64,000 nt of DNA from a virus, in IMG/VR virus record IMGVR_UViG_3300010368_000009, positions 1 to 64,000 of that record; one strand, 5' to 3'. A program made the position numbers and the translations under genes. This document shows positions 17,165-49,109 of the stretch, in pieces (the first letter of the stretch is position 1; every line of letters starts with the position of its first letter). The notes beneath the pieces were generated by a model. It was not told where the DNA came from. It saw nothing but the letters and a program-made list of their open reading frames with translations, and ran no database searches.

Positions 17165-17520
17165 TGGTTATAAGTAAGTTCATGAAAGAACTTACTCTTG
17201 CAGTTCGACACGATAATAATCTAGCCTTTGCGGAATTTGATGAAGATGGTAACATCTTACATTGGAAGGTGAAGACTCAAGCAAAGTTCATAGAAGAATC
17301 ACTTGGTCGAGAATTACCGTACACATGGGTATTGGTCGTTGGCAAAGAAGAAAAAGATCAAACCATCATCTGTGAAGTTTTAGAGACTTTTCCAATGGAC
17401 GAGTATGGTGATACAATTAATATCCTAAACGAGCCGATGTTCCAGTTACAAGCAAGCGAGTTACTAATATCATATATGAAAGATCATAGATGTGATGTAT
17501 CAGCTGAAACTATTAATTGA
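17161..17520 (+). CDS. unknown protein (119 residues)
   Basis: A 119-residue protein starting by ATGA overlap; an internal ATG at 17182 is an alternative start. It shows a strand-rich pattern (NLAFAEFDEDGNILHWKV, YTWVLVVGKEEKDQT) suggestive of a small antiparallel beta fold. Nothing identifies its role. tRNA-Sup follows 36 bases later. Confidence 0.6.
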   Translation: MMVISKFMKELTLAVRHDNNLAFAEFDEDGNILHWKVKTQAKFIEESLGRELPYTWVLVVGKEEKDQTIICEVLETFPMDEYGDTINILNEPMFQLQASELLISYMKDHRCDVSAETIN

Positions 17521-17556
17521 CATTGATGGTTCACCCTGTATATTGATGTCTTCAAC

Positions 17557-17633
17557 GGCTGGTTAGCTTAATTGGTCAAAGTCGGAGCCTCTAAAACTCC
17601 CAGATATGGGTTCAAGTCCCATACCAGCCACCA
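17557..17633 (+). tRNA. tRNA-Sup(CTA), amber suppressor
   Basis: A class I tRNA: acceptor GGCTGGT/ACCAGCC, A73 and CCA; D-stem GCTT/AAGT; T-arm ATGGG-TTCAAGT-CCCAT. The anticodon stem is GGAG/CTCC plus a C-A mismatch at 31-39, enclosing CTCTAAA, so T33 is followed by anticodon CTA at 17591-17593, which reads UAG. A TCT (Arg) reading would need an off-centre loop with C at position 33 and would lose the stem. The amino acid cannot be told from sequence alone. Confidence 0.82.
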
Positions 17634-17647
17634 AATTTTACAGAGCG

Positions 17648-17947
17648 ATGAATATGTCAAAAGATAAAACAACTGACCGGGTTTACACTCTTGATGAGTG
17701 GAGAAACAGTGTCGCCAGAATGTGGTGGGCAATTATTCCATCTTCGAAGTCTGATCTTGAAAAAATCAAGGATTGGGTTCTGAAGAACAGCAAAACCCTT
17801 GGTGATAACGTTTTCTTCCTCACAGATGATAAAACGGTTAAGATCAGCTGTCCTGATGGATTTCGTAAACTTTGCGGAATCGTTAAAGATGAACTGAACA
17901 TCCAATTCAAGGTCAAGCCTTATGGCGACAACGATCTTGAACTTTAA
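17648..17947 (+). CDS. unknown protein (99 residues)
   Basis: A 99-residue protein (MNMSKDKTTDRVYTLDEWR) following the suppressor tRNA. It contains helices and a strand pattern FLTDDKTVKISCPDG; no family is recognised. MSKDK at 17654 is an alternative start. It overlaps the next gene by 26 bases. Confidence 0.6.
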   Translation: MNMSKDKTTDRVYTLDEWRNSVARMWWAIIPSSKSDLEKIKDWVLKNSKTLGDNVFFLTDDKTVKISCPDGFRKLCGIVKDELNIQFKVKPYGDNDLEL

Positions 17948-18203
17948 AGTGTTTTTGGATTCATACGCAGCTTCATATAATTGGGCAGCAATTGTTTTCC
18001 CAATGAGTGATTTCGAATTAGCTATAGCATTCAAAGAGTTAGCAGAACCATACCTAACTGACCAAGTTGTTTTATTGGGATGTGAAGTTCGCTGCATTGA
18101 TAATCTATTAATGCTTAAAATTGTTGAGGCAGCGAAAGCCAAAGGAATTGATATCAAGTCGATTCAATTAAAATATGCAGGATGTGATATACTGATGGGT
18201 TGA
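17922..18203 (+). CDS. unknown protein (93 residues)
   Basis: A 93-residue protein overlapping its upstream neighbour. The pattern of alternating hydrophobic helix and strand (ILNFKVFLDSYAASYNWAAIVFP, LLMLKIVEAAKAKGID) suggests a compact alpha/beta domain. No motif is recognised. It ends shortly before the peptidyl-tRNA hydrolase gene. Confidence 0.55.
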   Translation: MATTILNFKVFLDSYAASYNWAAIVFPMSDFELAIAFKELAEPYLTDQVVLLGCEVRCIDNLLMLKIVEAAKAKGIDIKSIQLKYAGCDILMG

Positions 18204-18228
18204 CAACCCTAATACATCTTGATAACTA
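18200..18228 (+). promoter_or_regulatory. possible promoter of the PTH2 gene
   Basis: TTGACA (18200-18205) and TAACTA (18223-18228) at 17-base spacing; a TATAAT at 18229-18234 overlaps but is too far from this -35. It lies 30-50 bases before an AGGAG-ATG start. Confidence 0.45.
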
Positions 18229-18256
18229 TATAATATGACAACCACAGGAGATAGTC

Positions 18257-18682
18257 ATGACGTAGATTACTAAACAAGAACTACTTAAGAATAACACGAA
18301 CGAAGTGTCGGATAATAATCTTTATCTTTACGCTATCATTCGCAAAGACCTTGAAATGCCTTCGGGCAAGCTTGCGTCCCAAGCTGGTCATGCTTTCACT
18401 GACAGTCTTTGTCAGGCTTTAGATCAATCACCTGAACGGTTTCATAATTACCGTACCGGCCATGGTGGATCGAAAGTCGTTCTGAAAGCCAAGGGCGAAA
18501 CCCAACTCATCAATACCTATAATCGAATTCGCGAATCTGGCATTCCTTGTGCCTTGATCGTGGATCAGAAACATATCATGCCGCCGCACTTTGATGGTAA
18601 TCCCATCATCACGGCGCTTGGTATTGGTCCGTGTCGCCGCGAAGAGATTTACCCGATCATTAAAAAGTTTGGGTGCGTGTGA
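18257..18682 (+). CDS. peptidyl-tRNA hydrolase 2 with in-frame amber codon
   Basis: A PTH2-family peptidyl-tRNA hydrolase, which releases stalled peptidyl-tRNA by cutting the ester bond. Family motifs from the GTG at 18305 onward are GKLASQAGHAF (catalytic His region), SKVVLKAKG, ALIVDQKH (catalytic Asp) and ALGIGP. The only good ribosome site (AGGAG, 6 bases upstream) serves an ATG at 18257 that reads Met-Thr-TAG-Ile-Thr-Lys and stays in frame into the PTH2 body. So either the gene starts at ATG and needs readthrough of the third codon, or translation begins at the poorly placed GTG. A CUA-anticodon tRNA lies 620 bases upstream. Confidence 0.85.
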
Positions 18683-19275
18683 TGGCCAAGGATTATACGA
18701 AAATCAAAAATATTGATGAACTTGGATGCATGATGATGAAATGCAAACAGTTCAAGGATCAAGATGTGTTGGAACACGGATATTCAATCTATGATTACTT
18801 CCGTGATCTTCAGGATCATATACTTTATGATTCACCTACAACATATGAATGGAAATTACCTAATTGGATTTATAATGAAAAGTTATGGGATCAACTATTA
18901 GATCACAAGACGATTCGTACATATCAAATCTATCACGATTGTGGTAAACCATTCTGTAGAACCATCGATACGGAAGGTCGTCACCATTTCCCAGATCATG
19001 CTAATATATCAGCTGATCTATGGATGCATCTAATGGGTGATCAACAGATTTCCGATTTGATGCGAATGGATATGGATATTCATTTGATGCGTGCAGATGG
19101 GATTGAAGAATTCGCATCTCGTAAAGAGGCAGCAACGTTGCTTATAACGGGTTTATGTGAACTTCACAGCAATGCGCGTATGTTTGGTGGAATCTCATCC
19201 ACGGGCTTCAAAATCAAGTGGAAGGCCATGAACAAGTATGGTGGTCGCATTGCCGAAATACTTTGTCAAAAATGA
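18682..19275 (+). CDS. HD-domain-like protein
   Basis: A 197-residue protein whose ATG overlaps the PTH2 stop (TGATG). The sequence YQIYHDCGKPF, then HHFPDHANISADLWMHL, then MDMDIHLMRAD gives the H...HD...H...D order of a metal-dependent HD phosphohydrolase fold, similar to the HD part of tRNA-repair or nucleotide hydrolases. The coupling to PTH2 suggests a role in tRNA or nucleotide turnover, which is inference. The substrate is unknown. Confidence 0.65.
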   Translation: MAKDYTKIKNIDELGCMMMKCKQFKDQDVLEHGYSIYDYFRDLQDHILYDSPTTYEWKLPNWIYNEKLWDQLLDHKTIRTYQIYHDCGKPFCRTIDTEGRHHFPDHANISADLWMHLMGDQQISDLMRMDMDIHLMRADGIEEFASRKEAATLLITGLCELHSNARMFGGISSTGFKIKWKAMNKYGGRIAEILCQK

Positions 19276-26203: not shown

Positions 26204-26641
26204 ATGAAGACCGAAGATTACCCAGTTCAGATTATTCTGATGCGATCCGATTTGGCTTCTATGACTCCGGGTCGTGGCATGGCCCAAGCTGCACATGCAT
26301 CAAGCGTTCTTGCAGCGGCCCTACCAAGTTTCACAGACGAAATGAGTAAGGCATACGATAAATGGGAAAACACCACCACTCAAGGTTTCGGCACCTGTCT
26401 GGTGTTTGATGCCCACAATGAAGAAACAATCAAGAATATCGTGGATGATGTTCAAAAAGAATTAACTAAAACCGTGTTCGCGGCAATGGTGAATGATCCA
26501 ACATATCCAATCCATGATGGCTCATTCATTCATCTGGCCAGCGTCAATACATGCGGTGTGCTCTTCGGAATGAAATCCCAAATTGATATTATTCTTCAAC
26601 AATGGACTATCGATCTTCATCGTACTGGGTATGGGATTTAA
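26204..26641 (+). CDS. divergent peptidyl-tRNA hydrolase 2-like protein
   Basis: A 145-residue PTH2-like protein. It keeps the first motif in altered form (GRGMAQAAHASSV), a variable middle, and AMVNDPTYP where the catalytic Asp would lie. The final family motif GIGP is replaced by NTCGVLFG. It is probably the third PTH2 homologue of this window and the least conserved, so activity may have changed. It starts right after the SLOG gene with GGAG, and the two are likely translated together. Confidence 0.7.
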   Translation: MKTEDYPVQIILMRSDLASMTPGRGMAQAAHASSVLAAALPSFTDEMSKAYDKWENTTTQGFGTCLVFDAHNEETIKNIVDDVQKELTKTVFAAMVNDPTYPIHDGSFIHLASVNTCGVLFGMKSQIDIILQQWTIDLHRTGYGI

Positions 26642-48749: not shown

Positions 48750-49109
48750 ATGAAAATGTATGCCATCGTTCTTAACGAAGCACTTGCTGTCATGGGTGAT
48801 AATCGTGGAAAGATTGCCGCCCAATGCGGACACGCGTTTGTTACGGTTGCCATGAAATGCAAATCCAGTGATCCGAAACGCTGGAAAGAATATGATGAAT
48901 CAAGCTATCATGGCAAAGTTGTATTGAAGGCTGATATGGAAGAAGTTCAATCTTTGATGGATGAACTTAAAGGCAAAGTACCGATGCAACTTATTCGTGA
49001 TGCTGGTCTAACTGTGTTTGATGGTCCTACAAATACTGTATTAGGCATCGGTCCTATTCGAGATAGTGAACAGCCTAAGAGCTTGAAAGAATTGAAGTTA
49101 CTCAGATAA
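48750..49109 (+). CDS. peptidyl-tRNA hydrolase 2
   Basis: A 119-residue canonical PTH2. MKMYAIVLNEALAVMG is the first strand, RGKIAAQCGHAFVTVA carries the catalytic His motif, GKVVLKADMEEVQSL the second, QLIRDAGLTVFDGPT the catalytic Asp, and VLGIGPI the final motif. The length is that of archaeal PTH2. AGGAT ribosome site. It is the best conserved of three PTH2-like proteins in the window. Confidence 0.93.
   Translation: MKMYAIVLNEALAVMGDNRGKIAAQCGHAFVTVAMKCKSSDPKRWKEYDESSYHGKVVLKADMEEVQSLMDELKGKVPMQLIRDAGLTVFDGPTNTVLGIGPIRDSEQPKSLKELKLLR

Follow-up and report, generated by a model that had tools for sequence, protein, structure and literature searches.

In prfB, an early in-frame UGA controls the synthesis of a translation factor, RF2, by way of frameshifting and of RF2 itself. 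In pyrrolysine decoding, a dedicated tRNA(CUA), PylT, serves in-frame UAG codons in a few genes. Phages that use code 15, such as crAss-like and Lak phages, likewise possess a phage tRNA(CUA) that reads in-frame UAG, for which a role in the regulation of translation has been proposed (PMC9523058, PMC8346664). Finally, in an engineered coherent feed-forward loop, the leak dampener, a stop codon in the regulated gene is combined with a co-regulated suppressor tRNA, in amber and opal versions, to obtain a leak-free on-switch (PMC7969014). Does a comparable switch occur in nature? We analysed a 64,000-nucleotide stretch of viral DNA (the window), taken from the 101-kb IMG/VR virus record IMGVR_UViG_3300010368_000009. 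Here a suppressor tRNA gene with anticodon CTA precedes a gene for a peptidyl-tRNA hydrolase of the PTH2 family that has TAG as its third codon. Comparison with related phages indicates that this is very probably a translational on-switch for tRNA-rescue and tRNA-repair enzymes, gated by the suppressor tRNA.

Suppressor tRNAs of no known use appear in several phage genome papers (XacN1, Atu_ph07, Summit, RsoM2USA). XacN1 has two CUA suppressor genes in each terminal repeat, for which its authors found no target (PMC5852040); those of Atu_ph07 reported an opal suppressor and assigned no target to it (PMC6102473). The same PTH2 family is part of the PTH2 and tRNA-repair sets of jumbo phages, proposed to rescue ribosomes with cloven tRNAs (PMC7824862). 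Searches of PMC7824862 met neither the early stops nor the suppressor link nor the HD partner gene described below, and we found no earlier report of a link between suppressors and PTH2 or HD genes in the open-access literature searched. A probable natural suppressor-gated on-switch for translation has apparently gone unrecognised.

Results

An early amber codon in a PTH2 gene downstream of a suppressor tRNA

The suppressor tRNA gene (17557-17633; all features of the window given here lie on the plus strand) has an encoded CCA end. ARAGORN assigns it the anticodon CTA, and it scores 59.8 bits against Rfam RF00005 (gathering cut-off 29). About 620 nt downstream, a Shine-Dalgarno (SD) sequence, AGGAG (18246-18250), is followed by ATG (18257), ACG (18260) and an in-frame TAG (18263-18265), beyond which the frame is open through the PTH2 domain to a TGA at 18680-18682. 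The gene delimited in this way (18257-18682) matches Pfam PF01981 with 76.7 bits, against a gathering cut-off of 23, and its profile aligns with the solved PTH2 structure 2zv3 (E 1.8e-17). By these matches the protein is a member of the PTH2 family, with hydrolysis of peptidyl-tRNA as its predicted activity. A first-pass annotation had pointed out both the CTA tRNA and the TAG in frame with PTH2, and both are as described.

In each of four genomes, a genome-wide scan for an SD, a start codon, an early stop and a continuing coding frame gave PTH2 as the standout case. These scans and the conservation of the stop rule out a chance origin. A sequencing error at 18263, which the first-pass annotation had considered, is likewise ruled out, as the in-frame stop recurs in dozens of independent assemblies and isolates. 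Two PTH2 paralogues in the window (26225-26464 and 48762-49103) have ordinary starts; G001, G002, Phosso and Atu_ph07 contain three PTH2 genes each, like the window record.

Is the TAG conserved in related phages, a check that the first-pass annotation proposed? An in-frame stop is found in dozens of relatives. The sequence is unchanged in L006, a contig nearly identical to the window. In L007, a 335-kb contig with 78% protein identity, AAAGGAG-ATG-ACC-TAG is retained, and a tRNA-CTA of different body lies about 0.35 kb upstream. From the TAG to the position of a GTG at 18305 of the window, 11 of 13 codons differ between the two, 4 of them synonymously, and the changes are mostly in third positions. 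Sinorhizobium phage Phosso reads ATG-AAG-TAT-TAG and Agrobacterium phage Atu_ph07 reads ATG-ATT-GGC-GAA-CAC-TTT-TGA, both in frame with PTH2.

A profile search of viral contigs in IMG/VR yielded 30 PTH2 loci. About 25 of them have a pre-stop ATG, mostly with an SD comparable to that of the window, followed within 2-7 codons by TAG (TGA in Atu_ph07) in the PTH2 frame. A CTA tRNA lies no more than 5 kb away in 18 of these gated loci; in L203, L205, L209 and L216 a mere 17-111 nt separate it from the gated gene downstream. The members of another PTH2 clade (L217-L222) have ordinary starts, and a CTA tRNA was not found near them. One locus, L199, was left out of the support, as its ATG...TAG is out of frame with PTH2, probably through an indel. 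The early TAG persists in PTH2 genes that have diverged strongly and whose flanking codons change; in close groups of relatives the stop is unchanged while 25-40% of four-fold sites vary. Genes for a phage-encoded transfer-messenger RNA, another part of ribosome rescue, are present in the gated-PTH2 carriers L199, L200, L205 and XacN1 (L063).

The gene after PTH2 encodes an HD protein, and its homologues mostly have an early TAG of their own

The start of the next gene (18682-19275) overlaps the PTH2 stop in the sequence TGATG, so its product is probably co-gated through translational coupling. Its 197 residues include H85, D86, H106 and D130, which are invariant across 30 sequences. The profile of this protein matches the HD part of the tRNA A-adding enzyme of Aquifex aeolicus (E 5e-4), the matched structure being deposited as poly A polymerase / tRNA processing enzyme. 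An AlphaFold model computed from an alignment of the window and IMG/VR sequences has a predicted local distance difference test score of 95.8 and resembles residues 249-446 of 3wfr, the A. aeolicus enzyme, with a VIA Z of 14.6 (10.6 for the next family). The Pfam HD model, PF01966, gives 13.1 bits on the window protein, below its curated cut-off of 22, and is the model that five of nine members of the partner family match at E up to 1 (best 5e-4). The partner has the motif residues of HD phosphohydrolases and, as modelled, the HD fold. Because the 197 residues lack a nucleotidyltransferase head, with the alignment to 3wfr limited to the HD part, we call it an HD protein of the tRNA A-adding enzyme type and not a CCA enzyme. 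It would resemble a tRNA nucleotidyltransferase at most in its HD activity, and may act on tRNA ends.

HD homologues in most other phages have an early TAG of their own. A profile search with the HD partner gave 80 environmental loci, 69 of them distinct. Of the 69, 61 have TAG as the stop directly preceding the HD frame, and in 58 loci an ATG or GTG lies within 12 codons upstream of that TAG. For PTH2 in these loci, the preceding stop is TAG in 43 of 51 cases. As a background, the upstream stop is TAG for 17-34% of coding-like open reading frames (ORFs) in four genomes. HD, PTH2 or both are TAG-gated in 65 of the 69 loci; both genes are gated separately in 35, and a gated fusion is present in 12. 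The stop follows the start by 1-12 codons, most often by 2-4. A CTA tRNA was detected inside an 8.5-kb stretch in 34 of the 65 gated loci.

A candidate target for the suppressors of XacN1 emerged from a scan of most of that genome for SD-ATG-stop-coding frames. The single TAG case was ORF364, in which ATG-AAG-TAG is followed by 283 codons and whose annotated start is a later ATG that has no SD. ORF364 is a fusion: its N-terminal part is homologous to the HD gene of the window, its C-terminal part is PTH2 (PF01981, 25.3 bits, above the cut-off of 23). The same Pfam model gives 17.7 bits for GAP32, below the cut-off, and matches eight of nine diverged GAP32-type members at E up to 0.1. The target of the XacN1 CUA suppressors thus appears, from its sequence, to be the HD-PTH2 fusion gene. 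The annotated PTH2 of XacN1, ORF295, has an ordinary start.

An early TAG in PTH2, the HD gene or a fusion was also found in CM1, ME3, Kaldavass, XbC2, CBB, SNUABM_49, BF, GAP32, Arash, pT24, LR756511 and LR745206. Together with XacN1, and with LR756511 set aside, these are all the HD-bearing isolates and complete records examined, every one with an early TAG. In the group of GAP32, CBB, BF and XbC2, a further conserved TAG lies about 47 codons into the HD gene, which is annotated as at least two genes. The TAG-split HD gene is annotated as separate hypothetical genes in GAP32 (L314, 290476-291027), CBB, BF, XbC2 and Kaldavass, and L413 has two TAGs in series within its HD gene.

Stop codon and suppressor anticodon match

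TAG gates are accompanied by a CTA tRNA in the window, in G002, in Phosso (two such tRNAs, of which one lies 4.5 kb upstream of PTH2), in XacN1, in CM1 (confirmed, elsewhere in the genome) and in many contigs. They are also accompanied by one, near the gated gene, in ME3, Kaldavass, XbC2, CBB, SNUABM_49, GAP32, BF, Arash, pT24 and LR756511. Atu_ph07 has one TCA tRNA, and a CTA tRNA was not found in it. Its PTH2 stop is TGA; the TGA-gated phage therefore owns a TGA-reading tRNA. The HD gene is interrupted by TGA in L417/G013 and L418/G014, whose tRNA clusters contain TCA and no CTA. L417 is ambiguous by itself because a GTG directly follows the TGA; L418 has no such GTG. Within a genome, the stop is thus paired with a matching suppressor anticodon, as TAG/CTA or TGA/TCA, with three exceptions (G003, LR745206 and G015).

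Phages with ordinary-start PTH2 genes served as controls. In Munch, fENko-Kae01, SCTP-2, LR756508 and RaK2, no CTA pattern hit overlapped an Rfam tRNA; this control is good and non-exhaustive, because the pattern misses some tRNAs and would have missed that of ME3. The suppressors comprise 35 distinct tRNA bodies. Because the canonical tRNA to which they are closest differs from one body to another (Lys, Trp, Asn, Met and others), no single amino-acid identity can be assigned to them. Beside its CTA gene, G002 has another tRNA-like gene (145422-145493, in L131), which has the anticodon TCA and weak pairing and is possibly a pseudogene. Stenotrophomonas phage CM1 encodes a tRNA with anticodon TTA (L351, 176611-176685), a possible ochre suppressor, near its amber suppressor.

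Other features of the window

A putative sigma-70-like promoter, TTGACA-16 nt-TATATT (17517-17544), lies 12 nt 5' of the suppressor tRNA and matches 11 of 12 consensus positions. L007 has comparable consensus matches, TTGACG-17-TATAGT, before both its tRNA-CTA and its PTH2 gene. A small ORF of no assigned family (17655-17947) separates the suppressor tRNA from PTH2, and L007 has a similar short ORF, with a WW...PSS motif, at the same place. Between 14215 and 60843 the window contains 16 tRNA genes, mostly single and dispersed among protein genes rather than clustered.

Discussion

The first-pass annotation proposed that PTH2 synthesis is gated by suppressor activity. This is the reading we find best supported: the TAG is conserved, the suppressor anticodon matches it, PTH2 genes free of the stop occur in genomes in which no suppressor was found, and the alternative start is not conserved. 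Two points go beyond that proposal: the HD gene next to PTH2 seems to fall under the same gate, and the pattern is widespread, recurring in many jumbo phages that are not related to one another. We regard a suppressor-gated on-switch for tRNA-rescue and tRNA-repair enzymes as very probably the right explanation of these sequences.

How might the switch operate? Ribosomes would start at the ATG at 18257 and halt at the third codon, UAG, as long as no charged phage tRNA(CUA) is present. Once a synthetase, presumably one of the host, has charged the suppressor, PTH2 would be made, followed by the HD protein through the overlapping TGATG. The arrangement would amount to an AND-gate, or coherent feed-forward loop, in which tRNA-acting enzymes stay silent until the phage has a supply of mature, charged tRNAs; thereafter the level of PTH2 and HD protein would track the state of that supply. 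The likely advantage, as in the engineered feed-forward loop, is a leak-free gate for enzymes that act on tRNAs. Because the stop comes very early, unsuppressed initiation would yield no more than a few residues, and the identity of the inserted amino acid could be of no consequence. The diversity of the suppressors, with 35 bodies, points the same way, consistent with a stop in a variable tail.

Several observations weigh against gating by the suppressor. The evidence for it is comparative throughout, and charging of these varied tRNA bodies is an assumption. A CTA tRNA was not found in about half of the TAG-gated HD loci, where the search covered the 8.5-kb stretch only, and the tRNA and the gated gene of Atu_ph07, XacN1 and CM1 lie 100-230 kb apart. 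The first-pass annotation held that relatives keeping the TAG without the tRNA would refute its proposal. No CTA tRNA was found in the TAG-gated G003 (543 kb), LR745206 (635 kb; absent from the tRNA clusters examined) and G015, records that are incomplete or partly searched, and the suppressor found in G015 is TCA only; in other relatives, such as L007, TAG and CTA occur together. Conversely, Summit (L522/L523) has a CUA suppressor, yet its genome scan gave no convincing gated gene, and RsoM2USA has a reported CUA suppressor without an identified gated gene.

Could the early stop serve as a sensor instead of a gate? An ATG, 1 to 6 codons and a stop might form a homeostatic leader that senses drop-off or termination and feeds back on PTH2 and HD synthesis. 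Release factor, suppressor tRNA and peptidyl-tRNA drop-off would compete at the stop, the products of drop-off being the substrate of peptidyl-tRNA hydrolase, and readthrough would signal damage to tRNAs or the load of peptidyl-tRNA, in analogy to the prfB UGA. Such a leader shares the readthrough step with suppressor gating and differs in its logic. It would fit the finding that the gated gene is always PTH2, HD or both, never a random gene, and the position of the stop, 1-12 and most commonly 2-4 codons past the start. For Escherichia coli, the clearing by Pth of peptidyl-tRNA that drops off early has been described (PMC10192219). However, the sign of the feedback is not evident, since sequestration of the suppressor would lower PTH2, not raise it. 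Moreover, 35 loci have a separate gate for HD, and the GAP32 group has one at about codon 47, a position at which no drop-off is expected. We consider a sensing leader unlikely, although it deserves serious attention.

Reinitiation, or an alternative start after a mini-ORF with the suppressor irrelevant, has little left to recommend it and is largely refuted. The window does offer a GTG (18305), the first ATG, GTG or TTG after the TAG, and annotators chose internal ATGs for Phosso and Atu_ph07. But the GTG has no SD, as the first-pass annotation remarked, and is replaced by GTT in L007, and the annotated starts of Phosso and Atu_ph07 would remove the first strand of the domain. Most gated loci have no start codon between the stop and the PTH2 domain; in L194, L195, L198 and L210-L215, ATG, GTG and TTG are all absent between the stop and the first PTH2 strand. 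Reinitiation also leaves the covariation of stop and anticodon unexplained.

Global reassignment of TAG in the style of code 15, with PTH2 and HD as ordinary recoded genes, strikes us as scarcely credible. A suppressor tRNA(CUA) is present, and jumbo phages of this style exist (PMC13037316). However, TAG ends 11 of 100 called genes in the window record, 49 of 401 in G002, 28 of 549 in Phosso and 35 of 771 in Atu_ph07, or 5-12%. Because TAG stays an ordinary terminator, the code is not reassigned, in agreement with the first-pass annotation. In 30 record sets, coding density rose little when TAG was read as sense, an internal TAG is absent from most genes, and the PTH2 and HD genes alone emerge convincingly from genome scans. 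A weak coding signal after TAG in Phosso coincided with overlapping shadow ORFs; after their removal, one coding pair across a TAG remained.

That the stop exists for a special residue, like pyrrolysine or selenocysteine, is equally far-fetched: ARAGORN does label the tRNAs Pyl or SeC, by anticodon only, but the stop wanders from codon 2 to about codon 12, within a tail that is not conserved and is no part of the catalytic domain, TGA substitutes for TAG in some genes, and a search of six genomes for pyrrolysyl-tRNA synthetase (PylRS), which a host could still supply, gave no match over the cut-off.

Suppressor gating would give a specific target to at least the XacN1- and Atu_ph07-type suppressors, and would account for the split or truncated genes in the annotations of well-known isolates such as GAP32 and CBB. 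Stop-codon readthrough would thereby be tied to tRNA rescue and repair; the retention of suppressors by jumbo phages under the standard code therefore becomes testable in phage-host pairs. We also advance, tentatively and with somewhat less than even confidence, a broader proposal. In it a single translational unit, made up of PTH2 and an HD tRNA-end enzyme, would be regulated in trans by a dedicated suppressor tRNA, with the cognate stop as the operator. Synthesis of the rescue and repair enzymes would then be set by the functional state of the phage's own tRNAs, for instance when host anticodon nucleases attack them, and the whole would represent a widespread, previously unrecognised class of jumbo-phage regulation.

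How does this locus compare with the systems introduced above? It has the early in-frame stop in common with prfB, but the phage genes keep their frame and the suppressor tRNA is encoded. It differs from the PylT system in that PylRS was not found, the stop lies in a variable N-terminal tail, and TGA/TCA variants occur. In code 15 phages UAG is sense in many genes, whereas here TAG is an ordinary stop, the sole targets found are PTH2 and HD, and the stop is near the start. It resembles in design the engineered feed-forward loop (PMC7969014), which is synthetic, whereas the proposed phage switch is of natural origin and has enzymes that act on tRNA as its targets. If our reading is true, phages possess a natural counterpart of the engineered suppressor-tRNA switch.
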